NCBI GenBank assembly: GCA_934667815.1
Contig: CAKUMO010000003.1
Coordinates: 1 to 64,000 of the forward strand
Length of the DNA: 64,000 bases
DNA from: an uncultured Oscillospiraceae bacterium
GTDB lineage: Bacteria > Bacillota > Clostridia > Oscillospirales > Oscillospiraceae
Reading direction: 5' to 3'
A program made the translations under genes and the position numbers. Shown here piece by piece: positions 39,669 through 62,610 of this stretch. Numbering within the stretch: the first letter of the stretch is position 1; every line of letters begins with the position of its first letter. A model generated the notes under the pieces. That model saw only the letters and a program-made list of their open reading frames with translations, ran no database searches and was not told the DNA's origin.

Positions 39669-39739
39669 GTTTTTTGACAGGAATCCGCAAATTCTGCGGC
39701 CTCCGGAGAAACCAACCGGGCGTTAAGTAAAAAAATCGT

Positions 39740-39782
39740 GGCGCCCTTGGACTGCAGCACTCCCGCCGCGTCCAAGGGCGCC
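39740..39782 (+). promoter_or_regulatory. Intercistronic hairpin between binding protein and permease
   Basis: A perfect 13-bp stem (GGCGCCCTTGGAC with its complement) has a 17-base loop and lies 72 bases after the binding-protein stop. There is no T-tract beyond CTCTTTCCC. It may stabilise the 3' end of the abundant binding-protein mRNA or act as a partial terminator. The remainder of the 249-base gap shows no gene. Confidence 0.65.
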
Positions 39783-39917
39783 CTCTTTCCCACTCTTGCC
39801 GCGGAAGCCTGCGCAAAGCCCGGCGCGATGATCGATCGGCTCAGAGCCTGATCCGGCATTCACCGGCCTGTGCGCAGCTTTCCACGGCGCACCATCCAAC
39901 CAAAAAAGGAGCGTGCC

Positions 39918-41747
39918 ATGAACCAAACCTCTCCCCTGCGGGCCAGAAGCGGGTCGATCTTTCTGAACAAGATCAAGACCTATTTCTCCAAGCCCTATAA
40001 CGTCATTCTCCTGCTGCTCGGCATCGTGCTGACCTTTACGACGATCGCGCCCATCGTGGCCATCGTGCAGGACACCTTCAAAATCCATCCCGGCACCATC
40101 GACGCCCACCTCACGGGCAAGGCCGAGGGCTATACCCTTGTCAACTACGTCGATCTTTTCACCAGCAAAATGGCGAAGAAAAACCTCTGGACGCCGCTTC
40201 TGAACACCGTGCTGCTGGCCATCGGCACCTGCGTGGTGTCCATCCTGTTCGGCGGCATCTTCGCTTTTTTAATCACGCGCACAAATCTCGCATGGAGAAA
40301 ATATTTAAGCTCCATTTTCATCTTCCCCTACATCATGCCGCAGTGGACGCTGGCCGTCGTGTGGCAGAACCTCTTTAACTCCAACGCCGTCACCGGCACG
40401 TCCGACGGCCTGATCGCCTCGCTGTTCGGTGTGAACATGCCGAAGTGGTGGTGTCAGGGACTGTTCCCGAGCCTGGTCGTGCTGGGCCTGCACTATGCGC
40501 CATTTGCCTATATCCTCATCGGCGGCATTTTCCGCAACATGGACGCCAATCTGGAGGAGGCTGCGACCATTCTCGACACGCCGCGCAGAAAGACCATGTT
40601 CCGCATCACCCTGCCCATGGTCAAGCCCGCGATTCTGTCCACGGTGCTGCTGGTGTTCGGCAGCGCGATGGGCTCCTATCCCGTGCCGCATTACCTGAAG
40701 CTCACCACCCTTTCGACCAAGTACGTCTCCATGAACGACAAGTACACCGGCGAAACGGGCATTCTGGCCATCATCATGATGATCTTCGGCGTGGCGATCA
40801 TGCTGCTCAACCAGCTCTCGCTGCACAGCCGCAAGAACTACACCACCGTCTCCGGCAAATCCGGTCAGATCTCCAAGATCAACCTCGGCAAGATCGGCAA
40901 GTACGTCATCGCGCTCATTCTCGTGGTCGTGACGTTCTTCACGAGTATTTTCCCCATCGTCTCCTTTGCCTTTGAGACCTTCCTGCCGAACCCCGGCGAC
41001 TATTCCTTCCTGTACACGGGCGATGCCTCGAACCTGACCACCAAGTGGTGGATCACCGCCGAGAACGTCTCCGAAAACGGCATGTACGGCCAGAAGGGTA
41101 TCCTCTACAACGAGACGATCTGGAAGGCCTTCGGCGGCACGATGCTCGTAAGTGTCTGCTGCGCCCTCATCGCCGGTACCATCGGCACGATGATCGGCTA
41201 CGCCGTGTCGAAAAACCGCCGGAGCAAATGGGCAAACTACGTCAACTCCATGGCCTTTTTGCCCTACCTGATGCCGTCCATCGCGGTCGGCGCAGCCTTC
41301 TTCGTCCTGTTCTCCACGGAGAAATTCAATCTCTTTAACACCTACACGCTCCTGATTATCGCAGGCACGATCAAATATATCCCCTTCGCCAGCCGCAGCT
41401 CACTGAACTCCATGCTTCAGCTCTCCGGCGAGATCGAGGAGGCCGCGATCATTCAGGACATCCCGTGGTACAAGCGGATGCTACGCATCATCATCCCGAT
41501 CCAGAAGTCGTCCATCATCAGCGGCTACCTGCTGCCCTTCATGACCTGCCTGCGTGAGCTGTCGCTGTTCATGCTGCTGTGTACGCAGGGCTTCATCCTC
41601 TCGACCACGCTGGACTACTTCGACGAAATGGGTCTGGCCGCGTTCTCCAGCGGCATCAACCTGATCCTGATCGTCACCATTCTCGTCTGCAACACCATCG
41701 TCAACAAAGTCACGGGCGCCAGCCTCGACAAAGGAATAGGAGGATAA
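39918..41747 (+). CDS. FbpB-like ABC importer permease, two fused permease domains
   Basis: 609 residues with about twelve membrane segments. Each half has its own permease domain with an EAA loop: LEEAATILDTPRRKTMFRITLPMV in the first and IEEAAIIQDIPWYKRMLRIIIP in the second. This fused layout is typical of Fe3+/thiamine/organophosphate importers (FbpB, ThiP, AfuB). AAAGGAG selects ATG 39918. It is followed three bases later by the ATPase gene. Confidence 0.9.
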   Translation: MNQTSPLRARSGSIFLNKIKTYFSKPYNVILLLLGIVLTFTTIAPIVAIVQDTFKIHPGTIDAHLTGKAEGYTLVNYVDLFTSKMAKKNLWTPLLNTVLLAIGTCVVSILFGGIFAFLITRTNLAWRKYLSSIFIFPYIMPQWTLAVVWQNLFNSNAVTGTSDGLIASLFGVNMPKWWCQGLFPSLVVLGLHYAPFAYILIGGIFRNMDANLEEAATILDTPRRKTMFRITLPMVKPAILSTVLLVFGSAMGSYPVPHYLKLTTLSTKYVSMNDKYTGETGILAIIMMIFGVAIMLLNQLSLHSRKNYTTVSGKSGQISKINLGKIGKYVIALILVVVTFFTSIFPIVSFAFETFLPNPGDYSFLYTGDASNLTTKWWITAENVSENGMYGQKGILYNETIWKAFGGTMLVSVCCALIAGTIGTMIGYAVSKNRRSKWANYVNSMAFLPYLMPSIAVGAAFFVLFSTEKFNLFNTYTLLIIAGTIKYIPFASRSSLNSMLQLSGEIEEAAIIQDIPWYKRMLRIIIPIQKSSIISGYLLPFMTCLRELSLFMLLCTQGFILSTTLDYFDEMGLAAFSSGINLILIVTILVCNTIVNKVTGASLDKGIGG

Positions 41748-41750
41748 ACC

Positions 41751-43385
41751 ATGCCTGAAATCAGATTAGAGCATATTACCAAGCGGTGGGGCAAGTTCTA
41801 CGCCGTTGAGGATCTGAACCTCGTCATCGAGGATAACGCGTTTGTGACCCTGCTCGGCCCGTCCGGCTGCGGCAAAACCACCACCCTGCGCATGATCGCC
41901 GGACTGGAAACGCCGACCTCCGGCCGCATCACCATCGGCGACAAGGTCGTTTTCGACTCCGCCATGGGCATCAACGTCCCGGCCAACAAGCGCAAGGTCG
42001 GCTTCCTGTTCCAGAACTACGCCCTGTGGCCGAACATGACCGTTTATGACAACATCGCCTTCGGCCTGTCCAACATCAAAGAGCCGATGGAGCGCATCGA
42101 CTTTGACAGCAAGAACGCCGCACGCCTCGCGCAGCTGCTCTCCGCGCCCGCCGAGGTCGCCAAGGTCATCGAGGAATGCCGCGACCGCAACGGCAAGCTC
42201 GACGAGAAGAAGGCCGTTCTGAAGCTCATCGACGCCTTCACCCTCTCGCAGTTCACGGCCAAGCGCCTGCTGTCCTACCATCCGGAAAACGGCGGCAATT
42301 TTGATTCTCAGGTCGCCGCGCTCAAGGCCAAGGCCGATGCCGGCGCCGCCTCCGCCAAGTCCGCGGGCTACACGCTCGACGCAGAATACCGCTTCTGCAA
42401 GGACGGCAAGCCCGTGATGACCACGCGCAAGCTGACCAAGGAGGAGATCGACCTCACCGTCCGCCGCGTCAGCCGCATCGTCAAGATCGGCATGTTCATG
42501 GATCGCTACCCGGCAGAGCTTTCCGGCGGTCAGCAGCAGCGCGTCGCCATTGCCAGAACCCTTGCGCCGGAGCCGACGGTGCTGTTCATGGACGAACCGC
42601 TCTCCAACCTCGACGCAAAGCTGCGTCTGGAGATGCGCTATGAGCTGCAGCGTCTGCACGTCGAGACCGGCTCGACCTTCGTCTACGTCACGCATGACCA
42701 GATGGAGGCCATGACGCTCGCCACGCGCATCTGCCTTATCAACAACGGCGTTTTGCAGCAGTATGCCGCGCCGCTGGAGGTCTACCACAAGCCCGCCAAC
42801 CTCTTTGTTGCAGACTTCGTCGGCAATCCCTCGATCAACTTCATCGAGGCCAAGGGCGAACAGCTCTCCGACGGCTGCATCTCCCTGTCGCTGCTCGGCG
42901 GACATAAGGCCGTGTTCTCCCCGAAGGGCGGCATAACGCTGGGCGACTGGTACGCACAGCGCGACGCGGACGAGGCCGCGCTTGCCGCAGCGAAAAAGGC
43001 CAAGGCCAGCGAAAAGGGCAGCGTGGAAAAGGGCAACAAGGACGAGGTGTTCCGCTATCACATCGCACGCGTCACCGAGGAGGACGATTCTCTGGCCGAG
43101 GAGCCGGTGATCGCCAACGGCGACTTTGTGCTGGGCGTGCGTCCGGAGTTTTTGGACATCACCGACCGCAACGCGCTCAAGGGCGAGATCTACGGCGCCA
43201 TGCCCACCGGCATGGAATCGACCATCAAGGTTCGCGTGGGCGATTATCTGCTGACGGGCGTGATTTTCGGCAGCTCGCTGTTCACCATCGGCGCAGAGGT
43301 TCCCTTGAGCGTCTCCGGCGAGGACATCATGCTCTTTGACCGCAAGAGCGGCAAGTGCATCTGCCTCGGCAGCCTGAAGTTCTGA
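41751..43385 (+). CDS. ABC importer ATPase with a large helical-domain insertion
   Basis: 544 residues versus about 350 for FbpC/PotA proteins. Walker A GPSGCGKT (36-43), Q-loop Gln88, signature LSGGQQQR (from 257), Walker B MDEP (Asp281, Glu282) and switch THDQMEA are intact. The distance from Q-loop to signature is about 169 residues instead of about 50, so some 120 residues (about 105-235) are inserted in the helical domain, the part that touches the permease. A second Ala/Lys-rich insertion breaks the C-terminal TOBE region (about 400-430). Confidence 0.88.
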   Translation: MPEIRLEHITKRWGKFYAVEDLNLVIEDNAFVTLLGPSGCGKTTTLRMIAGLETPTSGRITIGDKVVFDSAMGINVPANKRKVGFLFQNYALWPNMTVYDNIAFGLSNIKEPMERIDFDSKNAARLAQLLSAPAEVAKVIEECRDRNGKLDEKKAVLKLIDAFTLSQFTAKRLLSYHPENGGNFDSQVAALKAKADAGAASAKSAGYTLDAEYRFCKDGKPVMTTRKLTKEEIDLTVRRVSRIVKIGMFMDRYPAELSGGQQQRVAIARTLAPEPTVLFMDEPLSNLDAKLRLEMRYELQRLHVETGSTFVYVTHDQMEAMTLATRICLINNGVLQQYAAPLEVYHKPANLFVADFVGNPSINFIEAKGEQLSDGCISLSLLGGHKAVFSPKGGITLGDWYAQRDADEAALAAAKKAKASEKGSVEKGNKDEVFRYHIARVTEEDDSLAEEPVIANGDFVLGVRPEFLDITDRNALKGEIYGAMPTGMESTIKVRVGDYLLTGVIFGSSLFTIGAEVPLSVSGEDIMLFDRKSGKCICLGSLKF

Positions 43386-43745: not shown

Positions 43746-44696
43746 TTACTTTCTGGCGATGGTTTCCTTGACGGCGCGGACGATGTGCTCGTCGGTCAGG
43801 TCGTAGCGCTGGCGCAGATAGCTCTGCGGGCCGACCTCGCCGAATTCATCCTCGACGGCGACGTAACCGACCTTCGCCTCGCCCTCCAGCGCTTCCTTGA
43901 CCGCGCTGTAAAGGCCGCCGATCTTGTTGTGGTTCTCGGCCGTGACGACCGCGCCGGTCTTGGCCGCCCATGCGCGGATCAGCTCGACGTCCAGCGGCTT
44001 GACGGTATAGGGGTCGATGACCGCGGCCTCGACGCCCTCGGCGGCAAGCTTCTTCGCAGCCTCCATGGCCTCGTGCACCATGATGCCCGTGGCGATGATG
44101 ACCGCGTCCGTGCCCTCGCGCAGAACGTTGCCCTTGCCGATCGTCAGCTCCGTGCCGGGCGCGTAGACGGGGTAGGATTCCTTGCGGCCGACGCGCAGAT
44201 ATTTCACGCCGGGCAGATCCTTCGCCGTGCGCAGGAAGCTCTCGAGCATGGTGATGTCCGTCACGTCACAGATCACCGCACCGGGGATGGCGCGGTAGAG
44301 CGCCACGTCCTCAAAGGGCATATGCGTGCCGCCGTTAAACGCGGCCGTGATGCCGGGGTCGGTGCCGATGACCGTGATGGGGTTTTGGGCATAGCCGCCG
44401 GAGAGGAAAATCTGGTCGTACACGCGGCGCGAGGCGAACGGCCCGAAGGTATGCACGATGGGCTTGAAGCCGACGGCTGCCGTGCCGCAGGCGATGCCAA
44501 TCATGTTCGCTTCCGCGATGCCACAGTTGATCGCGCGGTCGTATTCCTGAATCAGGCGCGCCGTGCCGATGCAGTTGGAGAGGTCTGCGTCAAAATAGAT
44601 GACGTTTTCGTCCTCCTTGAGCAGGCTCTCAATGATGCCGCCGAGGACTTTCTTGTAAAGCCGGGCGTCCTGTTCGCCATTATAGATGATCTTCAT
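43746..44696 (-). CDS. Transketolase, C-terminal subunit
   Basis: 316 residues: the pyrimidine-binding half and C-terminal domain of a split transketolase. The catalytic Glu is in CGIAEANMIGIACG, followed by HTFGPFASRRVYDQI, GTDPGITAAFNGGTHMPFEDVALYRA and the C-terminal NVLREGTDAVIIATG domain. With the N-terminal subunit (stop two bases upstream) it forms the full ThDP enzyme that moves C2 ketol units. It is the last gene of the long minus-strand cluster, just before the element B hairpins. Start 44696; a longer frame overlaps its partner. Confidence 0.92.
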   Translation of the reverse strand: MKIIYNGEQDARLYKKVLGGIIESLLKEDENVIYFDADLSNCIGTARLIQEYDRAINCGIAEANMIGIACGTAAVGFKPIVHTFGPFASRRVYDQIFLSGGYAQNPITVIGTDPGITAAFNGGTHMPFEDVALYRAIPGAVICDVTDITMLESFLRTAKDLPGVKYLRVGRKESYPVYAPGTELTIGKGNVLREGTDAVIIATGIMVHEAMEAAKKLAAEGVEAAVIDPYTVKPLDVELIRAWAAKTGAVVTAENHNKIGGLYSAVKEALEGEAKVGYVAVEDEFGEVGPQSYLRQRYDLTDEHIVRAVKETIARK

Positions 44697-44698
44697 GC

Positions 44699-45544
44699 TC
44701 AGCTCCTCCGTTCTTCCAGCTCGGCCAGATGTGCGCGCAGCACGGCCAGCCATTTGTCATAGGTTTCGGCGTCGGTCGTGACGGAATGATTCGAGGCCAT
44801 CTGCTCGACCTCCGGAATGCCGCGTCCCTTCACGGTGTCGAGCACGATGGCACGCGGGCGATCGCCCACGGGCGCAGTCAGGGCGTTATAGACCGCCTCG
44901 ACATCGTTGCCGTCCACGCGCAGCGCCTCGAAGCCGAAGGCCTCGAACTTCTCGCGCAGGTCAAACAGCGGCAGGACGGAATCGGTCGTGCCGTCGAGCT
45001 GCTTTTTGTTCTCGTCGATGAGCCAGAACAGGTTCTTGACCTTCTTGCCCGCGGCAAACATCGCAGCCTCCCAGACCTGACCCTCGTTGCTCTCGCCGTC
45101 GCCGACGATAAGATAGGTGCGGCTGGGGCGGCCCTTGATGCCGTCGCCCACGGCCATACCCACGGCCAGCGACGTGCCCTGCCCGAGGGAGCCGGTCGTC
45201 ATGTCCACGCCGGGGGTCTTGTTCTTGTCGCAGTGGCTGGGGAAGGACGTGCCGGGCTGATTCAGCGTGAGAATATCCTCATAGGGGAAGAAGCCCTTGA
45301 GCGCCAGCGCGGCATAGACCGCCGGGCCGGCGTGGCCCTTGGAGGAGACCAGCTTGTCGCGGTCGGGCCAGTGCGGGTTCTTGGGATCGTAGTGCATGAC
45401 GGCGCCGTAGAGCACGGCCAGCGCGTCGCAGATGCTGAGGCTTCCGCCCAGATGGCCGAAGCCGCGTGCCTTCATCTCCTCGACCACGCCGATGCGGATC
45501 TGCGCGGCGAAGATCTCAAGCTCGAGTTTTTGTTTGTTGTCCAT
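44699..45544 (-). CDS. Transketolase, N-terminal (ThDP-binding) subunit
   Basis: 281 residues. The ThDP motif is GDGESNEGQVWEA (GDG at 148-150, Asn153), with His31 in GFGHLGG and His71 in SKGHAGP in the usual places and GSLGQGTSLAVGMA before it. GGAGGAGC precedes the ATG. Split transketolases occur in housekeeping and in dedicated pathways, such as sulfofructose cleavage. Placement inside a catabolic operon suggests the second kind here. The C2 donor is proposed, not shown. Confidence 0.93.
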   Translation of the reverse strand: MDNKQKLELEIFAAQIRIGVVEEMKARGFGHLGGSLSICDALAVLYGAVMHYDPKNPHWPDRDKLVSSKGHAGPAVYAALALKGFFPYEDILTLNQPGTSFPSHCDKNKTPGVDMTTGSLGQGTSLAVGMAVGDGIKGRPSRTYLIVGDGESNEGQVWEAAMFAAGKKVKNLFWLIDENKKQLDGTTDSVLPLFDLREKFEAFGFEALRVDGNDVEAVYNALTAPVGDRPRAIVLDTVKGRGIPEVEQMASNHSVTTDAETYDKWLAVLRAHLAELEERRS

Positions 45545-45556
45545 ATTGCTCCTCCT

Positions 45557-46729
45557 TCAGATTCTTGCAACGCCGGAATCGCGGGCGGCCTGTGCAACGG
45601 CGGCGGCCACGGCCTTGCCGACGCGCGGGTCGAACGCCTTGGGGATGATATATTCCGCGCTCAGCTCCTCGTCGGAGACCAGCTCGGCCAGTGCGCGTGC
45701 GGCAGCCATCTTCATTTCCTCGTTGATGTCGGAGGCGCGGACGTCGAAGGTGCCGCGGAAGATGCCGGGGAAGGCCAGCACGTTATTGATCTGGTTCGGG
45801 AAGTCCGAGCGGCCCGTGGCGATGACGGCTGCGCCGCCGGCCTTGGCCTCGTCAGGCATGATTTCGGGCGTGGGGTTGGCACAGGCGAAGAGGATCGGAT
45901 CCTTGGCCATGGTCCTGACCATCTCGGCCGTGACCGTGCCGGGAGCGGAAACGCCGATGAACACGTCCGCATTTTTGATTACGTCCGCGAGCTTGCCGGT
46001 CTCCTTCTGACGGTTGGTGACGAGCGCCATCTCCTGCTTGATCCAGTTGAGGTTCTCGCGGCCCTCGTAGATCGCGCCGGTGCGGTCGGTCATGACGATG
46101 TTCCGGAAGCCCGCCGACAGCAGCAGCTTGACGATGGAGATCGCCGCAGCGCCTGCGCCGGAGGTGACGATCTTCACGTCCTCCTTCTTTTTGCCGACGA
46201 CCTTCAGGGCATTGGTCAGGCCGGCGAGGGTGATGACGGCGGTCCCGTGCTGGTCGTCGTGGAAAATGGGAATGTCGCAGCGCTCCTTGAGCTTGCGCTC
46301 GATTTCGAAGCAGCGCGGCGCGGCAATATCCTCAAGATTGATGCCGCCGAAGGAGCCGGAGATCAGCGCCACGGCGTTGACAAATTCGTCCACATCCTTG
46401 GTCTTGACGCAGAGCGGGAAGGCATCCACGCCGCCGAAGGCCTTGAACAGCACGCATTTGCCCTCCATGACGGGCATGCCGGCCTCCGGGCCGATGTCGC
46501 CCAGACCGAGAACAGCCGAGCCGTCGGTGATGACGGCGCAGAGGTTGTGACGGCGGGTCAGGTCATAGGAGCGGTTGACGTCCTTCTGGATCTCGAGGCA
46601 GGGCTGCGCGACGCCGGGCGTGTAGGCAAGGGAGAGGTCGTCCTTGGTCGCAACGGGAACGGTGGCGATGACTTCGATTTTTCCCTTCCACTTCTCGTGG
46701 AGCTTGAGGGATTCTTCTGCGTAGTTCAT
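45557..46729 (-). CDS. NAD(P)-dependent malic enzyme
   Basis: 390 residues, the short bacterial type. Tyr36 in LAYTPGVA, Lys91 in [13 protein letters not shown], the metal-binding [10 protein letters not shown] and the Rossmann [14 protein letters not shown] are present, then ACANPTPEI. It decarboxylates malate to pyruvate oxidatively; related enzymes accept other 2-hydroxy-diacids. It lies between larA and the transketolase genes (12-base spacers on both sides), so a four-carbon diacid is a likely intermediate of the pathway. Confidence 0.93.
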
Positions 46730-46741
46730 AAAAATTCTCCT

Positions 46742-47992
46742 TTACGGTTGTACTACCGGCAGCGTGGAGCCGCCGTAAGGCATGGCAAGAACGGTTGCGT
46801 CGGGGCCGAGCTTTGCATAGGCAGCGTCCAGCGCGGCCTGCGCCGAGGCAAAGGGGGTCAGGAAGCACTTGCGCACCAGCGCGTCCGGCATTTCCGAGAC
46901 GAGATAGACCTCCGCATGCTCGAGCACCATGGCGATGGCCGCGGCCTTGTGCCCGCCGAGCTGGAAATGCTTCTGCACGCGCTCGGTCAGGTCGGAGGGC
47001 TTCGCCGCCTCCTGAATCCAGCGCTCAAAGACGCCCTCGCCCAGTCCCTCGCGGCAGGAGCCGATGACGATGATCACGCCGCCGTCGCGCACGGCATGCT
47101 TGGCGTTGTCCAGCGCCTTCTGCGTCTGGTAGAGATTCAAGTCCTTCGGTGCGCCGCCCTGACTGACCAGCACGATGTCCGCGCGCCTGGCAATGGGCTT
47201 CTGGTACAGCGTGTCGAGGAAGGCGCAGCCCGCGCGGTGTGCCTTGACCGCGTCGCCCGCGACGGCGTGGACGATGTTCTTGTGCTCGTCGAGCACGACG
47301 TTGACGATATAGTCGATGCCGAGGATGCGCCCGGCCTGCTCGATGTCCTCGCGGATGGGATTGCCGTCGAGCTTGCCCGCGTGCGCCTCCGGACGGATCA
47401 TCATGCGGTGGTTGCACTGGATGGCATCGCGGGTGGAAACGCCGGGCATGATGCTCTTTGCGCCGCCGGAATACCCGGCAAAGTAGTGATACTCAATGTT
47501 GGCAAGGCAGATCACGCGGTCGGCCTCGGCCACGGGACGGAAAATATCCACGGGCGTTCCGGCGTCCGTCGTACCCAGATGCACGCAGTCGTCCGGATCG
47601 GAATCGACACAGCGCAGCTCCTGCCACCCGCGCTCACCGGCCAGATGCCGCTGCTCGTCGGGCGTGTGGCGCCGGTGGCTGCCCAGCGCAAAGACGAGAG
47701 TGATGTCCTTTTTATCCACGCCTGCGGCATAGAGACGGTCGAGCAGCGGCGGCAGGATCTTCCACGTCGGGCAGGGGCGGGTGATGTCCGAGGTGACGAT
47801 GGCGATCTTCTCGCCGGGGTGCACAACCTGCTCGATGGCGGGCGCGCCGATGGGCGCATCCAGCGCGGCGCGGACGGCGTCCTCGCCGGTCAGGCCGGGT
47901 GCGAGGCGGTTTGCATGCAGAACGCCGAGCAGGCGGTCGTCGCGCACCTCAACGCTCTGCGTGCCGGTGCCAAAGCCGAATTCCAGCTTCAT
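46742..47992 (-). CDS. larA: LarA-family nickel-pincer racemase/epimerase
   Basis: 416 residues. Residues that hold the nickel-pincer cofactor in lactate racemase have counterparts: His106 in GSHRRHT, His169 and Lys179 in EYHYFAGYSGGAKSIMPG, and His195. Arg72 in TRPCP would contact the substrate carboxylate. The family covers lactate, malate and sugar-acid racemases, so the substrate is open. The cofactor genes larB, larC and larE are not in this window. It overlaps the PGK-like gene by ATGA. Confidence 0.88.
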   Translation of the reverse strand: MKLEFGFGTGTQSVEVRDDRLLGVLHANRLAPGLTGEDAVRAALDAPIGAPAIEQVVHPGEKIAIVTSDITRPCPTWKILPPLLDRLYAAGVDKKDITLVFALGSHRRHTPDEQRHLAGERGWQELRCVDSDPDDCVHLGTTDAGTPVDIFRPVAEADRVICLANIEYHYFAGYSGGAKSIMPGVSTRDAIQCNHRMMIRPEAHAGKLDGNPIREDIEQAGRILGIDYIVNVVLDEHKNIVHAVAGDAVKAHRAGCAFLDTLYQKPIARRADIVLVSQGGAPKDLNLYQTQKALDNAKHAVRDGGVIIVIGSCREGLGEGVFERWIQEAAKPSDLTERVQKHFQLGGHKAAAIAMVLEHAEVYLVSEMPDALVRKCFLTPFASAQAALDAAYAKLGPDATVLAMPYGGSTLPVVQP

Positions 47993-49245
47993 TTCTTTTC
48001 CTCCAGCGCCGCGCCGTGGCGCAGCGCCTTGACGACCGGCAGCTCCTCGCCCGTCAGGAAGCGGATGAGCGCACCGCCGCCGGTGCAGATATAGTCGATG
48101 TTGTCGGTCTGGCCGTACTTGCTCGTCGCGGTAATGCTGTCGCCGCCGCCGACGACGGTGTAGGCCTTCGTTGCGCCGAGGGCAAGCCAGACGGTCCTGG
48201 TGCCCAGCTCCGTCGTCTCCTGCTCAAAGACGCCCATGGGGCCGTTGACGAACACGGTTGCGGAGCTTTCGATCAGGCGGCGGTAATTTTCGGCGGTTTT
48301 CGAGCCGATGTCCAGAGAGCCGATGTCCGCAGGAATGCTGCCGACGGCCGCCTCGCGGCGTTCGCCGTTCTCCAGCCACGCCAGATCCTCCGGCAGGACG
48401 ATGCGGTCGGCGTACTTCTCGAGCAGGCCCTTGGCCACGTCGATGTATTCGCCGTAATTGGACTTGTAGATGAAATCGAGGCTTCCCTTGCCGATCTCCT
48501 CACCCTTGGCGGCCAGCAGGATGTTGCCGACCAGACCGCCGGTCAGGACGCGATCGGCCGCGCCGCCCCGGAGGACGGTCTCGAGCATCAGGAAGGCATC
48601 GGAAATTTTCGCGCCGCCGAGGACGAACGTGCACGGGCGTGCCGGGGACTCCATCAGCTCGGAGATGACGCAGTATTCCTTTTCAAACAGGCGACCCATG
48701 GCCGACGGCAGCACCTGCTCAAAGCCGCACAGGCTCGGCTGGTCGCGGTGCGCGGCAGCAAAGGCGTCGCAGACATAGAGATCGGCCAGCGGCGCGAGCT
48801 TGCGCACGACCACGGTCTGCGCCTGCTGCTCGTGCGTGAGCTTGAGCTTCAGCTCAAAGAGCGTCTGCTCCTCGGCCATATAGCGCACGTTCTCCAGCAG
48901 CAGGATCTCGCCGTCGTTCAGACTGCGCACGGCCTCCTGCGCGGCAGGGCCGCAGACGTCCTCGACAAACTGCACGGGTCTGCCGAGCAGCTCCTCGAGC
49001 ACCGCGCGGTGCGGACGCAGGGTGTAGTAGTTTTTATATTCGATGTCGCTTCCCTGATGGGCGAGCAGCACGACGCGTGCGCCCTTGTCCGAAAGCTCGC
49101 GGATGGTGGGGACGCAGGCGCGGATGCGGGTTGTCGAGCGCAGCGTTCCGGTCGCCCGATCCACGGGCTGGTTGATGTCCACGCGGCAGAGCACGGTCTT
49201 GCCGCGATAGTCGAACTCATCGAGCGTTTTGATTCCAAATCGCAT
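47989..49245 (-). CDS. Archaeal-type phosphoglycerate kinase-like protein with altered substrate site
   Basis: 418 residues; alignment from memory is best with archaeal PGKs. The N-domain has CRVDINQPV (Asp23, Asn25), STTRIRA, LLLENVR (Arg121) and AFAAAHR (Arg167). The loop that reads HLGRP in bacteria or HQGKP in archaea is HQGSD here (63-67), so the Arg/Lys that contacts the substrate phosphate is missing. The nucleotide side (GGAKISDAF, NGPMGVFE, GGGDSI) is intact. Likely a kinase for another acyl phosphate. TTTGGAGG before ATG 49245 fixes the start. Confidence 0.85.
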   Translation of the reverse strand: MRFGIKTLDEFDYRGKTVLCRVDINQPVDRATGTLRSTTRIRACVPTIRELSDKGARVVLLAHQGSDIEYKNYYTLRPHRAVLEELLGRPVQFVEDVCGPAAQEAVRSLNDGEILLLENVRYMAEEQTLFELKLKLTHEQQAQTVVVRKLAPLADLYVCDAFAAAHRDQPSLCGFEQVLPSAMGRLFEKEYCVISELMESPARPCTFVLGGAKISDAFLMLETVLRGGAADRVLTGGLVGNILLAAKGEEIGKGSLDFIYKSNYGEYIDVAKGLLEKYADRIVLPEDLAWLENGERREAAVGSIPADIGSLDIGSKTAENYRRLIESSATVFVNGPMGVFEQETTELGTRTVWLALGATKAYTVVGGGDSITATSKYGQTDNIDYICTGGGALIRFLTGEELPVVKALRHGAALEEKK

Positions 49246-49335
49246 GGCGTAGCCTCCAAAAAAGGACGGCGGCACAGCGCGGCAATGCCAGGCTGTACCG
49301 CCGCATATTACGGTTATGAAGTTCTGAAAGGGTGC

Positions 49336-50394
49336 TTACTGCTTCTTAAATTTTCCGATGTGCAGATACTTGTTGGTCTCGGCGGTGCCCTCCTCGCGGG
49401 TAAGCTGCATCTTCATGCAGGCGCGGATGGCATCCATGGTCTCGGGGATGGTGACGGATTCCTGCGGGATGTTGATGGCATACATGATGTCGTTGCCGGT
49501 CTCGACGATGGAATCTGCCCACAGGCCGATCTCGTACATGTCGCCGCGGCGGTTGCCGAGGTCACGGGCATACTTGAACAGGCTGGCGTTGCCCTTGAAG
49601 CCCTCGTCGATCGTGACCACGCGGATGCGCGGATGCTTCTCGAACGCGGCAAGCGCGGCCTCCTTGGTGATCTTCTTGCCGTCCTTGGCCGAAGCGACCA
49701 CGGTGATGATATGGCCGTGGGTCACGGGCGTGTGGACGAGAATGCCGGTGGCGTTGACATGCGGCATGATGGTCATGAGGTCAACTGCCTGATGCGACGG
49801 TGCCTTGTCGATCTGCAATGCGTTCGTCAGGCCGCGATGATAATCGCCGGGGTCGGCCACGCGGCGGATGATGGTGATGGCCACGCGCTCAATGCCGAAT
49901 TCACGGTCGAGGCAATCGACGGTACGGATCAGGCCCGTGGTGTTGCAGGAGGTGAGCTTGAGGTAGTCCACGCCCAGACCCTTTTCATAGTTGGCATAGC
50001 CGTGGAAGAACACGTCCGCGACGGAGTTCTTCTCGCCGCCCTGGAAGATGGCCTTGACGCCGTACTTGACATACAGCTCCTTGTTCTTCGCGCCGACGCC
50101 GCCGGGGGAGGAGTCGAGCATCACGTCAACGCTCTTGCAAAGCTCCTCAAAGGTGCCCGCAACGGGGATGTCCTTGGCCTCGAAGGCGGCCTTGTCCGCG
50201 CCGTCAACGAGATAGAGGTTGTACTTGACGCCGTTCGCGCCGATCATGTCGTTTTCGCGCAGCGCCTGAATGGAAAGCGTCGGGGCGAGATCCGCAATAC
50301 CGACCAGCTCCATGTCGCCCTGCATGGCAACGCCGTCGGCCAGACGCTGGCCGATGGTGCCGTAACCGGCGACGCCTACTCTGATTTTCTTCAT
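49336..50394 (-). CDS. Type II (archaeal) glyceraldehyde-3-phosphate dehydrogenase-like protein
   Basis: 352 residues. Rossmann motif VGVAGYGTIGQRLADG, catalytic Cys150 in TSCNTTGL, RR at 177-178 and HGHI near 226 follow the archaeal GAPDH layout. Two substrate-site stretches differ from my memory of archaeal enzymes: RGLTNA (187-192) where KGPINS is usual, and SHQ (200-202) where SHH is usual. It probably oxidises an aldehyde to an acyl phosphate, using NAD(P). It sits 90 bases before the PGK-like gene, copying the normal GAPDH-PGK order. Confidence 0.87.
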   Translation of the reverse strand: MKKIRVGVAGYGTIGQRLADGVAMQGDMELVGIADLAPTLSIQALRENDMIGANGVKYNLYLVDGADKAAFEAKDIPVAGTFEELCKSVDVMLDSSPGGVGAKNKELYVKYGVKAIFQGGEKNSVADVFFHGYANYEKGLGVDYLKLTSCNTTGLIRTVDCLDREFGIERVAITIIRRVADPGDYHRGLTNALQIDKAPSHQAVDLMTIMPHVNATGILVHTPVTHGHIITVVASAKDGKKITKEAALAAFEKHPRIRVVTIDEGFKGNASLFKYARDLGNRRGDMYEIGLWADSIVETGNDIMYAINIPQESVTIPETMDAIRACMKMQLTREEGTAETNKYLHIGKFKKQ

Positions 50395-50470: not shown

Positions 50471-51283
50471 TCAATTTTCAAGCAGCTTTCGCACCGCCGC
50501 GAGCCAGCCTGCCGCGGCCTCCTGCTTCGTCGGCAGGGGCAGGCATTCCGCGCTCAGAACGCCGTCGTAGCCGATCTGGCGCAGCGTGCCGAGCACGCCC
50601 GCAAGGTCGAGGTGTCCCTGACCGGGGTAGCGGCGGTTGGAATCTGCCAGATGCACATATTTGATCTCCGGCGCGCAGGCGAGGATGGAAGCGGACAGGT
50701 CGGCCTCCTCGATGTTCATGTGGAAGGTATCAATCAGAAGCCCGGTGTGCTTCAGGCCGTGCGTGCGCACAAAGCCGGAAATGTCTGCCATGGTGCACAA
50801 AAAGTTGTTTTCATAGCGGTTGATCGGCTCAAAGACGATCTCAACGCCCTCTCTGCCCGCAGCCTCGTCCAGATGCGCCATGGACCTGCCAAGACGCTCC
50901 AGCGCGGCAGGAAGCTCCTCGGGCTTGGACAGATTCCCGCGCATGCAGCCGATGATGACCTTTGCGCCGAACTGCCCTGCCAAAGCAATAAACTGCTCGA
51001 GCCTGCGGACGGCGGCGAGGCGGCCTGCCTCGTCCGCGTCCGTGATGGAGAGCCGGTCGTTGACGTAGGCTCTGCCCGTCCCGAGGGCGGTGACGCCGAG
51101 GCCGGTGCGGCGCAGTGCCGTCCGGATCTCCTCGGCGTTCGCCGCCAGAGGGTCAGTGAAATGCAATTCAACACCGTCGTAGCCCAGACGCGCAGCGGCT
51201 TCGATGCCGCTGACCGGGTCCCCCTCGCAGACGAAGGGCGCGCTGCCGATCAGCTTGTCTACGACGGTCATGGAGGTTTTCAT
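50471..51283 (-). CDS. iolO: IolO-like TIM-barrel sugar-acid epimerase
   Basis: 270 residues, AP-endonuclease-2-type TIM barrel. Metal ligands are likely Glu152 (FEPINRYE), Asp185 (DTFHMNIEE), His211 (HLADSNRR) and Glu246 (AECLPL). The combination GTGRAYVNDRLSIT, FGAKVIIGCMRGN, EPINRYE, DTFHMNIEEAD and HLADSNR resembles Thermotoga maritima TM0416, 5-keto-L-gluconate epimerase of the inositol pathway. It starts 3 bases after the hydrolase gene. A close paralogue is encoded at 62.6 kb. Confidence 0.8.
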   Translation of the reverse strand: MKTSMTVVDKLIGSAPFVCEGDPVSGIEAAARLGYDGVELHFTDPLAANAEEIRTALRRTGLGVTALGTGRAYVNDRLSITDADEAGRLAAVRRLEQFIALAGQFGAKVIIGCMRGNLSKPEELPAALERLGRSMAHLDEAAGREGVEIVFEPINRYENNFLCTMADISGFVRTHGLKHTGLLIDTFHMNIEEADLSASILACAPEIKYVHLADSNRRYPGQGHLDLAGVLGTLRQIGYDGVLSAECLPLPTKQEAAAGWLAAVRKLLEN

Positions 51284-51286: not shown

Positions 51287-52408
51287 TTAGGACTCTACGA
51301 ACAGGCCGCGGCGCGGAAGCTCGTGGACGGACTTCCAGCCCTCGGAGAGCGGCTCGCGCAGACACGGCTCGATCTCCTCGTAGGGGCGCAGGCTGAACTT
51401 TCTGGGATCGGGCACCTGACCGGCCGGATAGGCCGCCAGAATGTCCTCGACCATGGCGTTGAGGTACTCGCAGATGGCTGCGATGGCACGCTTGACGCGG
51501 CGCGGTTCACCGCGGGAGGGATAGCCCACGACGCCCTCGGGGGTGCCGAAGCGCTCGATGACACGGTGGCCCTCGGCCTCGGACCACTTGTTCGGGCGGT
51601 GGAAGGAGTCCACGCTGCCGTCATAGAAGCCCTCGTCGAGCATGCCGAAGCTCTTGGCCTGCGCATCGACGACGCAGCTCATGTCCACCATGCCGGGGAA
51701 CATCAGCAGAGCCGCGGAGGTCTCGGCCTCGTCGGCGTGGACAAAGGGCGTGCTGATGAAGTCGGGACGCTCGTCGCCCAGCGGATAGAAGAACTCGCGT
51801 ACGGCGCGGTGCCACTCGACGACGGTGGCAAAGGCCGGGAGCTGGAAGCGCTTGAAGAATTCCTGAATGGCGGATTCCATCATCCAGTCCATGCCGTGGT
51901 TATTGACAAGGATGATCTTGCGGAAGCCGTCGTCCCACAGGCCGACCATAACATTGATGAGCGTATCGACGATGGAGCGCTCGGTGGTCATGACCGTGCC
52001 GGGCATGCCGCAGTGGTGATAGGGGTGGCCGCCGTAGTTGATGGGCGGCAGGGCAAGGGCGACCTCATGGCCGGCCTTCGCGGTCTTGCGGCGCACGGCT
52101 TCGCAGATGGACGAGCACATGAAGGTGTCAAGGCCGGAGTTGTTGTGGATGCCATGGTTCTCGGTGCAGCCGATGGGAACGAGCACGATGTCGTTCTTGT
52201 GGCGCTTGTTGATGACCATTCTGCGCGGGGAGGTCTGGATGTAGCAGCCGGGCTTGCCCATCTCGGATTCGGAGGGGATGCCGTAGTCGTCGAGGATGGC
52301 CTGAATTTCTTCCTCGGATGCGTCCCAGAGGCGCTTTTTGAGCTGGCCGATCTTGTTGTCCTCAAAGAAAATGTTCGGGTACTCGGTGGTCAGATACTTT
52401 TGGTACAT
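51287..52408 (-). CDS. Creatininase-fold hydrolase (IolN-like)
   Basis: 373 residues. Metal ligands of the creatininase family are visible: Glu83 and His85 in CTENHG, Asp94 in SGLDTF, and the HADE motif of FVHADEAETS; GGHPYHH and NNHG complete the site. In Thermotoga the creatininase-like IolN hydrolyses a diketo-inositol ring to 5-keto-L-gluconate, and the gene pairs with iolO as here. An N-terminal extension of about 60 residues (SEEEIQAILDDYGIPSESE) is absent in the paralogue at 61.7 kb. Confidence 0.78.
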   Translation of the reverse strand: MYQKYLTTEYPNIFFEDNKIGQLKKRLWDASEEEIQAILDDYGIPSESEMGKPGCYIQTSPRRMVINKRHKNDIVLVPIGCTENHGIHNNSGLDTFMCSSICEAVRRKTAKAGHEVALALPPINYGGHPYHHCGMPGTVMTTERSIVDTLINVMVGLWDDGFRKIILVNNHGMDWMMESAIQEFFKRFQLPAFATVVEWHRAVREFFYPLGDERPDFISTPFVHADEAETSAALLMFPGMVDMSCVVDAQAKSFGMLDEGFYDGSVDSFHRPNKWSEAEGHRVIERFGTPEGVVGYPSRGEPRRVKRAIAAICEYLNAMVEDILAAYPAGQVPDPRKFSLRPYEEIEPCLREPLSEGWKSVHELPRRGLFVES

Positions 52409-52617: not shown

Positions 52618-53568
52618 TCAGGCGTTCTTGAAGGTGTCGACGTTCTCCTTGGTGACGACGACGGTCTCAACCTCATAGAACGCGTCAACTTTCTTGCCCT
52701 CGAGGACGTCCACGGCAGCCTTGACGGCGGTGTAGCCCTGCATGTAGGGGTTGCCAAAGGAGGTGACGGTGATCTTGCCTTCCTTCAGAGCGGCGACGGC
52801 GTCGTCGTTGGCGTCCTGGCCGGCGACCTTGATGGTGCCGGTGAGGTTGGCGGCGTCAATGGCTTCGGCGGAGCCGAGGGCCATTTCGTCGTTGCAGCAG
52901 AGGATGGCGTTGACATCGGGATGTGCCTGCAGGAGGTTCTGCACGACGTTCAGCGCGTCGGCACGGGAGTAGTTGGCGGACTGCTGGGCAACGACTTCGA
53001 TGTTGGGATACTCGGCCAGAGCCTTCTCAAAGCCCTTGACACGGTCGATGGAGGTCTGTGCGCCGGTGGAGCCTTCGATGATGAAGATCTTGCCTTCGCC
53101 GTTCATCAGCTCGAACATGGCCTTGGCGGTGTTGTAGCCCTGGTTGATGTTTTCCAGGCCGCAGAAGGTCTTGTACTGGGTGTCGTCGGAGATCTTGGTG
53201 TTCAGGTTGACGATGGGGATGCCGGCCTCGTTGATCTTCTTGGTGGCCGGGACGATGGCTTCGGAGTCAACCGGAGCGAGGACGACGCAGGAAACGCCGG
53301 AGACGATGGCTTCCTCGCAGAGGTTGGACTGCTGCTCGTTGCCGGAGCCTTCTGCCGTATCAACGGGGGTCTTGCAGGTGACGGTGTAGCCCAGCTCAGC
53401 ACCGGCGGCCTTGGCGCCGTCCATAACGCTGATCCAGAAGGGAGCGGTGGAGTTCTTCACGATAACGAGAATTTCTTTTGCGTCGGTTTTGTTGTTGTCC
53501 TTGGAGCAGCCGGCGAACATGCAGGCCACCATGGCAACGGCAAGGATGAGTGCAAAGATTTTTTTCAT
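52618..53568 (-). CDS. Sugar/polyol ABC importer binding lipoprotein (RbsB/InoE-like)
   Basis: 316 residues. Lipobox FAGC (Cys21), then a type I periplasmic-binding fold: ILVIVKNSTAPFWISVMDGAKAAGAELG, VSCVVLAPVDSEAI, IPIVNLNTKI, AILCCNDEMALGSAEAI and VAGQDANDDAVAALKEGKI. Such proteins bind ribose, galactose, inositol and similar polyols. It is encoded with two permeases and a double ATPase. Given the catabolic genes, inositol or another cyclitol is the best guess. Confidence 0.9.
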   Translation of the reverse strand: MKKIFALILAVAMVACMFAGCSKDNNKTDAKEILVIVKNSTAPFWISVMDGAKAAGAELGYTVTCKTPVDTAEGSGNEQQSNLCEEAIVSGVSCVVLAPVDSEAIVPATKKINEAGIPIVNLNTKISDDTQYKTFCGLENINQGYNTAKAMFELMNGEGKIFIIEGSTGAQTSIDRVKGFEKALAEYPNIEVVAQQSANYSRADALNVVQNLLQAHPDVNAILCCNDEMALGSAEAIDAANLTGTIKVAGQDANDDAVAALKEGKITVTSFGNPYMQGYTAVKAAVDVLEGKKVDAFYEVETVVVTKENVDTFKNA

Positions 53569-53631
53569 TTTTTCCTACTCCTTTTTTGTTGGTTGGGTTT
53601 TTTATTCACACAGCAGCGCTGTAATGAACGG

Positions 53632-54621
53632 TTACGCAGCGGCCTTGGCACGCTTTTTCTTGTGCTCGGCGACGTAGAGCATCAGAAGGTTCAGTCCGCG
53701 CTCGTAGAACACCGAGAACAGGATGACCATGCCGACCACGGCCTGCTGCCAGTTGGTCGAAACGCCCATGATGTTCAGGCCGTTGCGGATGAACATGATG
53801 ACCAGTGCGCCGATGATGGTGTTGATGACCGAGCCCTTGCCGCCGCCGAAGGCGATGCCGCCGATAAGCGCGGAGGCCAGAGAGTCGATGGTCAGGGTGC
53901 CCTTGATGGTCGGGTCGGCCGCGTTCAGACGGGCCAGATACAGAATGCCGGTCAGGGAGGCCAGCAGGCCGTTGATGACGTACACGGAGATGACGATCTC
54001 GTCTGCACGCATGCCGGCGAGCTTGGCGGCCTTGCGGTTGTGGCCCAGCGCGTAGAGCGCACGGCCGTAGGTGGTGTGCTTGGTCAGGAAGTACAGCAGG
54101 GCAAACACGGCGATCGTGATGAGCGCGATATTCGGGATGCCGGGGATGAGCGCGCCGTTGGTCAGAGCGCGGAAGCCCTCGGGGAAGCCGTAGATGTACT
54201 TGCCGTCGCAGACGACATAGGCAAGGCCCAGCGCCACGAAGTCCACGGAGAAGGTGGCAATGAACGGCTCGATCTTGACCTTGGCGATCAGAATACCGTT
54301 GAGCAGGCCGAAGGCGACGCCCACGCCGACCGCGACCAGAATGCCGACAAGGTAGTTGCCCTCGCTGAAGAAGGTGCCGCTGAGGTAGCTCGAGAGCACC
54401 ATGTTCGAGGCCATGGAGATGTCGATGCCGTTGGAGATGATGGCAAGGCTCATGCCGAAGGCCATCAGCAGGGTGAAGGGCGTCTGCTGGAAGATCACCT
54501 GGCTGAGGTTGTTCCAGTTGAGGAAGGCACCCGGCTGGAGCACGGCCATGATGGCCATGACCACAATGAGGATCAGAAAACGAGAGATGAGGTCAACGCG
54601 GTTTTTAGCTTCCAGTGACAT
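53632..54621 (-). CDS. Sugar/polyol ABC importer permease (RbsC family), second
   Basis: 329 residues, about nine membrane segments. LLMAFGMSLAIISNGIDISMASNMVLSSYLSG, LAGMRADEIVISVYVINGLLASLTGILYLARL and LIGGIAFGGGKGSVINTIIGALVIMFIRNGLNIMG are RbsC hallmarks. It overlaps the other permease gene by 17 bases. Two different permeases indicate a heterodimeric channel. Confidence 0.9.
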   Translation of the reverse strand: MSLEAKNRVDLISRFLILIVVMAIMAVLQPGAFLNWNNLSQVIFQQTPFTLLMAFGMSLAIISNGIDISMASNMVLSSYLSGTFFSEGNYLVGILVAVGVGVAFGLLNGILIAKVKIEPFIATFSVDFVALGLAYVVCDGKYIYGFPEGFRALTNGALIPGIPNIALITIAVFALLYFLTKHTTYGRALYALGHNRKAAKLAGMRADEIVISVYVINGLLASLTGILYLARLNAADPTIKGTLTIDSLASALIGGIAFGGGKGSVINTIIGALVIMFIRNGLNIMGVSTNWQQAVVGMVILFSVFYERGLNLLMLYVAEHKKKRAKAAA

Positions 54622-55621
54622 GGCCGTAGACCCTCCTTAATCCCTTGATGTTCTTTCTGTGTTCGTTTGCGACGTCCACAACGATCATGGTGACGATGAC
54701 GACGCCGATGAGCGCCTTCTGCCACGTTGCCGGGATGCCCATCAGGCTCAGGCCGCTGGCCAGCACGCGCAGCAGCACCGTGCCGAAGACCGTGCCGAGG
54801 ATGCCACCCTTGCCGCCCGCCATGGACGTTCCGCCGATGACGACGGCCGCCATTGCATTGAACGAATATTCCACGCCGACCGAGGGGCTGCCGGAGTTGG
54901 TCATGCAGGCGATCGCAACGCCCGCGACGGCGGCAAAGAGACCGGCCAGCGCGTAGACCCAGATGCGGGTCTTGACGACCTTGATGCCCGAGACGTTTGC
55001 AACGTTTTCCGAGCCGCCGATGGAATAGACATTATAGCCGAAGCGGGTTTTCTTCTGCACCAGCACCATCAGGCCGACCAGAAGGATGGTGATCCAGATG
55101 ATGACGTACAGGCCGAGAATCTTGCCGTTGCCGATCCAGTCAAGAACCTCGTTCTTGACCGGGATGGTCACGCCGTTGGTGAGCACCAGCGCAAGGCCTG
55201 CGAAGATACTCATGCTGGCGAAGGCGACGACCCAGTAGTCAAATTTCAGCTTTGCCACGAGCACGCCGTTGAACGCGCCGATGGCAAGACCCATCACAAG
55301 CGGAATGAGAATGACCAGCACCGTGGGCATGCCCGCCTGATTCAGCAGCGCCACCACGACGGCTGCCATTGAGACGGTCGAGCCGACGGATATATCGTTC
55401 TTGCCCATCAGGATGACCAGCGTCAGACCGGTGGAGGTGAGCAGCAGCGTGCAGCAGTTGCGCAGGATCAGCATCAGGTTGTAGCTCGTGAAGAAGCGAT
55501 CCGTTGCGATGGAGAAAAACAGAATCAGAAGAATATCGCCGATCAGAATGCCGGGAATGTTCAGCTTTTGGTAGCCGCGGCGAACCTTTTGCAGTGCGGG
55601 CGGCAGCGTCAGTTTGCTCAT
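54605..55621 (-). CDS. Sugar/polyol ABC importer permease (RbsC family), first
   Basis: 338 residues. TGLTLVILMGKNDISVGSTVSMAAVVVALL, the VSGIKVVKTRIWVYALAGLFAAVAGV segment and IGGTSMAGGKGGILGTVFGTVLLRVLASGLSLMG define an RbsC-type permease. The start at 55621 is set by the ATGA overlap with the ATPase stop; a long upstream frame lies over the ATPase gene. GGAGGTCACGGC is the ribosome site. Confidence 0.9.
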   Translation of the reverse strand: MSKLTLPPALQKVRRGYQKLNIPGILIGDILLILFFSIATDRFFTSYNLMLILRNCCTLLLTSTGLTLVILMGKNDISVGSTVSMAAVVVALLNQAGMPTVLVILIPLVMGLAIGAFNGVLVAKLKFDYWVVAFASMSIFAGLALVLTNGVTIPVKNEVLDWIGNGKILGLYVIIWITILLVGLMVLVQKKTRFGYNVYSIGGSENVANVSGIKVVKTRIWVYALAGLFAAVAGVAIACMTNSGSPSVGVEYSFNAMAAVVIGGTSMAGGKGGILGTVFGTVLLRVLASGLSLMGIPATWQKALIGVVIVTMIVVDVANEHRKNIKGLRRVYGHVTGS

Positions 55622-62605: not shown

Positions 62606-62610
62606 TCGCC

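Follow-up and report, generated by a model that had tools for sequence, protein, structure and literature searches.

In the classical IolG-E-D-B-C-J pathway of inositol breakdown, IolG, IolE, IolD and IolB yield 2-deoxy-5-keto-D-gluconate, HOCH2-CO-CHOH-CHOH-CH2-COO-, which, read from its CH2OH end, has the D-threo configuration, like the fructose and xylulose phosphates that are cleaved by transketolases (TKs). The Thermotoga-type inositol pathway comprises IolG, IolM, IolN and IolO and is completed via mannonate dehydratase to 2-keto-3-deoxygluconate (KDG). For Anaerostipes, inositol breakdown is described as using IolC and IolJ (PMC8355322). The present analysis concerns a stretch of 64,000 nucleotides from an uncultured Oscillospiraceae bacterium (assembly GCA_934667815.1, contig CAKUMO010000003.1, positions 1 to 64,000 of the forward strand), the whole of which is referred to as the window, and in particular a block of genes between 43746 and 50394 on its minus strand, which encodes a split TK, a malic enzyme, a nickel-pincer malate racemase (LarA) and proteins resembling phosphoglycerate kinase (PGK) and type II glyceraldehyde-3-phosphate dehydrogenase (GAPDH). 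Judged from sequence comparison, these proteins probably constitute a transferable catabolic module that would finish inositol breakdown without the IolC kinase and the IolJ aldolase, with D-fructuronate as the most likely donor in the window itself.

By analogy, the nearest known mechanism is that of the sulfo-TK pathway, in which SqwGH is reported to move a C2 unit from sulfofructose to glyceraldehyde 3-phosphate (G3P), giving xylulose 5-phosphate (PMC11659671). Like the split TK as viewed here, SqwGH has two subunits and uses G3P as acceptor for the C2 unit of an unphosphorylated ketose whose end group is negatively charged; the end group there is a sulfonate and the leftover sulfo-erythrose is isomerised and then cut again, whereas here a carboxylate would take its place and the aldehyde would be oxidised with a gain of ATP. 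An assayed precedent for the subsequent node is carnitine breakdown, described as leading from malic semialdehyde via D-malate to pyruvate (PMC11353897); the module would share this node, although the reactions there are ascribed to a malic semialdehyde dehydrogenase and a D-malate dehydrogenase and here would be carried out by the GAPDH/PGK pair, a racemase and malic enzyme. Moreover, the LarAH6 malate racemase Mar2 of Thermoanaerobacterium is given a KM of 0.38 mM for L-malate in a report that leaves its cellular role open (PMC7583248). Both the curated model and the best solved match place the LarA of the window in the family of Mar2; unlike for Mar2, a source of D-malate is proposed for it here.

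Profile scans of the window's proteins with Pfam and NCBIfam models, each at its own cut-off, bore out the gene content given by the initial annotation: the split TK, malic enzyme, LarA, PGK-like and type II GAPDH-like genes are all present and co-directional behind iolN and iolO on the minus strand. The C half of the TK (43746-44753; PF02779/PF02780, Transketolase_C 105.8 bits and Transket_pyr 91.2 bits), which likely starts near 44696, carries the pyrimidine-binding and C domains, and the N half (44699-45544; Pfam PF00456, 144 bits) carries the thiamine diphosphate domain, all three domains scoring above the Pfam cut-offs on the two chains. Then follow, on the same strand, the malic enzyme (45557-46729; Pfam PF00390/PF03949, 115.4 and 99.5 bits), the LarAH6/Mar2-type LarA (46742-47992; 559.6 bits against a cut-off of 500 for NF052593, the NCBIfam model named 'nickel-dependent malate racemase, LarAH6 family'), the PGK-like acyl phosphate kinase (47989-49275; PF00162, 384 bits), whose true start is likely near 49245, and the type II GAPDH-like phosphorylating aldehyde dehydrogenase (49336-50394; NF003251, 394.9 bits, cut-off 185). 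The mostly close spacing noted earlier holds: of the six junctions from the TK C half to IolO, four are overlaps or 12 bases, and the PGK-GAPDH and GAPDH-IolO junctions are 60 and 76 bases.

With the GAPDH-like protein as query, 440 relatives were retrieved from one-genome-per-species contigs and the best 80 loci were kept, one of them being the window's near-identical contig. The remaining 79 relatives are 85-92% identical and stem from bins labelled Clostridia, Spirochaetes and Synergistaceae, among others, and from one named strain, Oscillibacter valericigenes An411 (G004), which carries the GAPDH-PGK pair in locus L067 and IolD at another place in its genome; the block occurs in rumen and gut genomes. 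The gene grouping exceeds chance: among these best 80 of 440 loci, many of which end early at contig ends, PGK was present in 73, LarA (at least 50% identity) in 58, both TK halves (at least 50%) in 47 and malic enzyme in 33. In the 46 well-flanked loci, defined by at least 5 kb on both sides, PGK was found in 45, LarA (at least 50%) in 40, the TK halves (at least 50%) in 32 each and malic enzyme in 23. The block mostly sits inside classical iol operons, since the same 46 loci hold IolE in 36, IolD in 35, IolB in 34 and IolG in 26 cases. One representative each passed the curated NCBIfam cut-offs for IolG (443.9 bits), IolE (416.5 bits) and IolD (894.3 bits); the IolG of locus L078 scored 354.1 bits against a cut-off of 355, and the IolB representative, with 94.4 bits, also stayed under its cut-off. 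A typical order, seen in L078, is transporter, iolG, gap, pgk, larA, me, TK-N, TK-C, iolE, iolB, iolD and iolG. IolN, on the other hand, was found in only two of the 46 loci, namely the window's own contig and L041, so that the block is no fixed part of an IolN/IolO pathway and the initial annotation, which linked it to the Thermotoga-type pathway, is refined in this respect.

The reactions set out below are deduced, and their stereochemistry was worked out by hand on established pathway knowledge; the observed side of the case consists of gene content, recurrence, the absence of IolC in the tested genomes and fixed substitutions at presumed substrate-binding sites. Within classical iol operons, the split TK would use 2-deoxy-5-keto-D-gluconate as donor and move C2 from this unphosphorylated 5-keto-hexonate to an aldose phosphate (e.g. 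to G3P, giving xylulose 5-phosphate). The leftover C4 compound would be (R)-3-hydroxy-4-oxobutanoate (malate semialdehyde), OHC-CHOH-CH2-COO-, of D configuration, which may be regarded as an analogue of D-glyceraldehyde 3-phosphate with COO- replacing the phosphate end. The GAPDH-like protein, for which the function of a malate-semialdehyde (or erythruronate) dehydrogenase is proposed, would convert it with phosphate to the 4-acyl phosphate, and the PGK-like protein would turn the latter into ATP and D-malate. Because the oxidation product would be D-malate, a malate racemase and a malic enzyme are needed to reach pyruvate: LarA would yield L-malate, and malic enzyme would release pyruvate and CO2. 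Many of the operons encode precisely these two activities. The outline given in the initial annotation, with TK acting on a C6 keto acid, the GAPDH/PGK pair on a C4 aldehyde acid with ATP gain, and LarA and malic enzyme downstream, is thus supported by sequence comparison, except that it is not tied to IolN/IolO and that the donor would mostly be 2-deoxy-5-ketogluconate and the product D-malate.

A different cleavage is conceivable, in which an aldolase splits unphosphorylated 5-keto-2-deoxygluconate to dihydroxyacetone and malonate semialdehyde, from which GAPDH/PGK would gain ATP. It would accord with the loci that show no TK in view and with the classical route, which is described as cutting the phosphorylated compound between C3 and C4 to 3-oxopropionate (PMC8355322). 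However, malonate has no stereocentre and would call for neither the malate racemase present in 40 of the 46 well-flanked loci nor the malic enzyme present in 23, and, with no search aimed at an aldolase or a dihydroxyacetone kinase, we give this explanation hardly any credence.

According to another explanation, the GAPDH-like and PGK-like proteins would be additional glycolytic copies acting on G3P and 3-phosphoglycerate, the TK would belong to the ordinary pentose-phosphate pathway, and all would be co-expressed to carry sugar phosphates derived from inositol. The type II GAPDH model is passed at its cut-off, the PGK matches its Pfam family, and the structure bank holds split-chain TKs named plain transketolase; the N half of one of these, 6yak, is the best solved match of the window's TK N half. 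Housekeeping enzymes, IolC and IolD were assessed in 22 module genomes, which we picked from the 80 loci. The question raised by the initial annotation, whether such genomes possess any other GAPDH and PGK, was answered in favour of the module: a canonical high-scoring PGK occurs in 20 of the 22 genomes, in G016 as the sole PGK, and a high-scoring class I GAPDH likewise in 20, with a fragment only in G008 and none in G010. Moreover, PGK and TK carry module-wide changes at what we take to be their substrate sites. The 63 module PGKs differ from 13 housekeeping PGKs of module genomes at 33 columns that are fixed or nearly fixed in both groups. All 63 read HQGSD where housekeeping PGKs read HLGR/KP (R/K in 13 of 13), so that the basic residue, which presumably binds the phosphate of 3-phosphoglycerate, is replaced by Ser throughout; the Arg of NVR and the Arg of HRD are retained in 63 of 63. 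At the positions of His and Asp in the aligned human and Carboxydothermus transketolases, residues assumed to hold the substrate in canonical TKs, the TK C half carries Asp132 and Asn140. Both replacements recur in all 45 module TKs and in three of three more distant split TKs, two of which adjoin IolN.

In the GAPDH-like proteins, SCNTTGL, taken to contain the catalytic Cys, is found in 80 of 80, as is the HGH of the HxH motif, taken to contain the catalytic His, within a changed motif, HTP(V/I)THGHI, where four solved archaeal enzymes have PTTLMHxH; PSHH is changed to P(S/T/N)HQ in all 80. The malic enzyme motif AYTPGVA is present in 28 of 28 aligned proteins, the window included, and DDQHGTA in 27 of 28. 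LarA retains the substrate motif GHK in 55 of 55 aligned proteins, and its best solved relative is Mar2 (6d6z), so that curated model and motif agree on the LarAH6 family for the window. Since the duplicate-enzyme explanation also leaves the malate racemase, the malic enzyme and the missing IolC unaccounted for, we consider it very improbable.

Up to 5-keto-2-deoxygluconate, the steps would be those of the classical pathway. Its next enzyme, IolC, which makes 5-keto-2-deoxygluconate 6-phosphate, was not found above the TIGR04382 cut-off in any of the 22 module genomes, with all candidates scored and a best score of 193.6 bits against 300, so that, unlike in the classical pathway, the keto acid would undergo neither phosphorylation nor aldol cleavage. 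The statement of the initial annotation that no kinase for the usual route is present stands for IolC, the only kinase examined. IolD exceeded its cut-off in 17 of the 22 genomes; none was found in G001, the window's close relative. The distribution of IolC and GAPDH was further compared among 297 genomes from the order of G007, picked because it holds module genomes, with IolD called at E<=1e-150 and IolC scored among the best candidates, up to seven per genome. IolD was found in 44 genomes, in 42 of them above its cut-off; IolC was found in 28, in each case above its cut-off, and this GAPDH in 20. Among the 44 IolD genomes, 24 have IolC only, 19 GAPDH only, one neither (G110, with IolD cut at a contig end) and none both; one GAPDH genome (G115) and four IolC genomes are devoid of IolD. 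This exclusion corresponds to a Fisher value of 1.4e-11, uncorrected for kinship, and to p = 7e-4 when only the eight operon-type GAPDH copies count. These eight copies, from eight of the 19 GAPDH-only genomes (80-91% identical), were treated as belonging to iol operons; for seven of them, iol genes were visible in the same locus (L004, L008, L016, L036, L111, L112 and L116), and the eighth genome, G082, was counted without viewing its locus. A second sample comprised 197 genomes from the family of G005, where 13 IolD genomes have IolC only in five cases, GAPDH only in three, both in two and neither in three; in the two genomes with both, GAPDH is 68% and 78% identical. In three genomes with IolD and neither IolC nor GAPDH (G769, G781 and G845), the iol clusters (L131-L133) are accompanied by genes of ABC transporters or of LacI type, which perhaps represent yet another lower half.

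In the window, the block is preceded by an IolO-like 3-epimerase (IolO1, 50471-51283, minus strand; 252.8 bits, below the NF041099 cut-off of 300) and an IolN-like diketo-inositol hydrolase (IolN1, 51287-52408, minus strand; NF041098, 268.3 bits, cut-off 245), whose N-terminus is about 50 residues longer than the model and which is 93% identical to the IolN of L041. A second pair, IolN2 (61658-62605; 503.3 bits with the same model and thus scoring higher than IolN1) and IolO2 (62602-63432; 221 bits), lies in a divergent operon on the plus strand; IolO is the best match of both IolO-like proteins, yet both remain under the cut-off of 300. Over the 6.6 kb compared, the window's upstream end shares about 97% identity with the 26,240-base contig JALEMS010000008.1 of a Clostridiales bin (G001), which continues past the window end with the remainder of a GntR-type regulator, the tagaturonate epimerase UxaE (495 bits), starting about 0.3 kb beyond the window end in the divergent operon, and a membrane transporter. 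The plus-strand iolN/iolO pair and UxaE are additions to the initial annotation. UxaE is near both IolN-type module clusters, directly after TK in L041 and in the divergent operon in G001. The window cluster thus resembles the Thermotoga-type pathway in being accompanied by IolN, IolO-like proteins and UxaE, and departs from it in that the mannonate dehydratase UxuA (PF03786) was not found in G001, a draft bin of unstated completeness, and in that the TK module would replace the KDG route.

Because IolN and IolO, with UxaE next door, form the feeder, D-fructuronate is the most probable donor in the window and tartrate the most probable C4 product. IolO presumably inverts C3 and UxaE C4 (numbered from CH2OH, worked out by hand), and together they would convert an L-threo IolN product into D-fructuronate, a D-threo TK donor. 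TK would then leave D-erythruronate, from which the GAPDH-like/PGK-like pair would make meso-tartrate; LarA would epimerise tartrate, and malic enzyme would decarboxylate the product. Whether the product is of the malate or tartrate type had been left open earlier; the tartrate type now appears more likely in the window and D-malate in iol operons. A tartronate-semialdehyde-reductase-family enzyme is also encoded in the operon, in a 3-hydroxyisobutyrate/tartronate-semialdehyde-reductase family reading frame (57147-58664, minus strand; PF03446/PF14833; TIGR01505 183.8 bits, below the cut-off of 340.75); since the dehydrogenase domains begin at residue 211, the real gene probably spans about 57147-58050, and it might lead onward to glycerate if malic enzyme turned tartrate into hydroxypyruvate.

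Support for a plain 5-keto-hexonate comes from locus L102 (G645), where an IolN (92% identical) and an IolO (63%) lie on the same strand upstream of two further genes, with no TK in view. The product of one shares 41-44% identity with annotated tagaturonate reductases and the other belongs to the altronate/galactarate-dehydratase family, which suggests that this IolN/IolO pair yields tagaturonate. The second choice for the window is a 2-deoxy keto acid, derived from a deoxyinositol such as quercitol via the alcohol dehydrogenases, IolN1 and IolO1, that would give D-malate as in iol operons. At columns at least 95% conserved in relatives, the window departs once in GAPDH, three times in TK, six times each in PGK and LarA and five times in malic enzyme, and these few departures count in favour of a deoxy acid and malate; the window's LarA also retains GHK. 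In a GAPDH and PGK tree of 63 rows, the window falls into a clade of six (support 0.944) that includes L080, an iolG-E-B-D locus, and excludes L041, and IolN and the module may therefore have met more than once. Given the reductase-like and dehydratase-family genes of L102, and with UxaE found close to the window cluster and next to TK in L041, however, the deoxy acid remains a doubtful donor. Unlikely, too, and slightly more so, is that LarA and malic enzyme are mere passengers in the window, the TK module only partly oxidising a hexonate, with the resulting tartrate being excreted or consumed by other reactions. L041 has IolN, TK, GAPDH, PGK and UxaE and shows neither LarA nor malic enzyme in view, and a new malate racemase is described as epimerising tartrate as a side activity only, as other malate racemases do (PMC11770544). 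In contrast, the window's LarA and malic enzyme retain the checked motifs, and the junctions within the run are overlaps or 12 bases. The conversion of D-fructuronate to a further metabolised tartrate is thus still preferred for the window.

Several observations weigh against the module as a route for inositol and against its assignment in the window. TK (at least 50% identity) is missing from 14 and malic enzyme from 23 of the 46 well-flanked loci. In 11 of the 19 GAPDH-only genomes of the first sample, GAPDH is 77-80% identical, and the four GAPDH loci read among them (G071, G289, G170 and G268) lie apart from iol genes and adjoin a PGK of another non-canonical class (HQGDT); neither GAPDH nor TK is matched in the visible part of the iol loci, which were read for all 11 genomes. 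The exclusion was not significant in the second sample (Fisher 0.59), in which five of ten GAPDH genomes lack IolD, one of these five having IolC. In addition, the first sample was an order chosen for holding module genomes, with IolC scored among at most seven best candidates per genome and kinship uncorrected, and nearly all genomes are draft bins, the enzymes being known here from their genes. As to the window, close IolN relatives were sought in 394 genomes and found in five; TK adjoins IolN in three of these (G001, G519 and G603) and is not beside it in G645, which has two copies, or in G705, where locus L105 shows sugar-kinase and 2-keto-3-deoxy-6-phosphogluconate-aldolase family genes. 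G001 is devoid of IolD, yet its module proteins show few window-specific changes, and L041 shows neither LarA nor malic enzyme.

Not every GAPDH relative belongs to the module, as is evident from the neighbourhoods: in the order of G007, 11 of 20 GAPDH matches are the 77-80% copies, and in the family of G005, four of six copies at 65-68% identity were read (L107, L113, L114 and L119) and lie beside transaminase or hydantoinase genes. A single run in locus L107, gabT-gap-pgk'-me-larA, encodes a 4-aminobutyrate (GABA) transaminase (528.7 bits, cut-off 506.65), GAPDH, the PGK-like protein, malic enzyme and malate racemase (557.3 bits, cut-off 500), and L114 shows gabT-gap-pgk' with a transaminase of 519.7 bits. 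A GABA-type transaminase acting on 4-amino-3-hydroxybutyrate would yield malate semialdehyde without TK. L107 and L114 have a TRAP transporter in addition to the transaminase, L113 and L119 a member of the hydantoinase family, and in L107, L113 and L119 malic enzyme and malate racemase accompany the GAPDH-like and PGK-like genes in settings without TK. A tartrate dehydrogenase (TIGR02089, 503.8 bits, cut-off 470.4) follows PGK in L065, a locus without TK or iol genes; a D-malate dehydrogenase considered after PGK in L067 was discarded, as the gene matches a DeoR-type regulator best. In L103, an alcohol dehydrogenase, IolN, TK and an aldehyde dehydrogenase (453.6 bits) are co-directional, with no GAPDH or PGK.

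On balance, though with less assurance than for the module itself, we favour the view that the GAPDH-like and PGK-like proteins together serve as a general 'acid glycolysis' unit, in which C4 aldehyde acids pass through a second, parallel payoff step and ATP is formed via malyl (or tartryl) 4-phosphate, neither of which we know as a described metabolite. It would be fed by TK from deoxyketogluconate in iol operons or from hexuronates in IolN clusters such as that of the window, or else by a transaminase of the GABA type acting on 4-amino-3-hydroxybutyrate; its outlets would be malate racemase with malic enzyme, or a tartrate or D-malate dehydrogenase.

Further variation was seen among the loci. 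In four loci from Spirochaetes bins (L011, L030, L055 and L048), gap and pgk occur with iolE, iolB and iolD and no TK or malic enzyme is in view; the LarA of L011, L030 and L055 is just 33-34% identical. In L006, L075, L076 and L106, the neighbours of the GAPDH-like gene resemble 2-oxoacid dehydrogenase E1, judged by eye and by distant match, and L006 and L106 also have the PGK-like gene plus E2 by Pfam. Just upstream of iolG and gap in L008, a protein encoded at 7376-8941, a relative of which occurs in 24 of the 80 loci, has its iPGM domains in reversed order, with Metalloenzyme preceding iPGM_N, and stands with several HAD phosphatase genes; these proteins are possibly inositol-phosphate phosphatases.

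The minus-strand run of the window extends from 61234 down to 43746 and begins with three zinc alcohol dehydrogenases of IolM/Tdh-like type (58049-59083, 59080-60162 and 60176-61234; PF08240), which score 150-192 bits with the IolM model NF041097 and thus below its cut-off of 450. After the dehydrogenase described above follows a ribose-type ABC transporter (52618-57135, minus strand; Pfam and NCBIfam), consisting of a binding protein (52618-53568), permeases (53632-54621 and 54605-55894) and an ATPase (55618-57135). Minus-strand reading frames between 61652 and 63905 were rejected as genes, having no Pfam or NCBIfam match where the plus strand encodes IolN2 and IolO2. On the plus strand, reading frames from 38259 to 43385, which run towards the operon end, suggest by eye a further ABC transporter with a binding protein, a double permease and an ATPase.

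An inositol route with this lower half is apparently undescribed: it was not found among the papers listed by literature searches aimed at it, judged by title and start of abstract and with most subscription journals and bioRxiv preprints outside, and the terms malate and Thermotoga do not occur in a 2025 review of gut inositol metabolism (PMC12482443). Since the enzyme families and the upstream path are known, the route would be a new lower half on a known base. A 2022 survey is described as demanding three of iolB, iolC, iolD and iolE, with incomplete sequences, assembly errors or frameshifts given as possible reasons for a missing fourth (PMC9430895), and a 2026 culture study reports inositol growers without known genes, suspects an unidentified route and names other taxa (PMC12838507). 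In gut and rumen, inositol from phytate is a substrate of plant origin. If the proposal is true, a route free of IolC would allow genomes now scored incomplete to be read correctly, and its products would be pyruvate and CO2 instead of those of malonate semialdehyde. Moreover, it would offer a cellular role for the Mar2 group of malate racemases, and a whole enzyme pair of glycolysis would have been re-used with a carboxylate replacing the phosphate, still gaining ATP.

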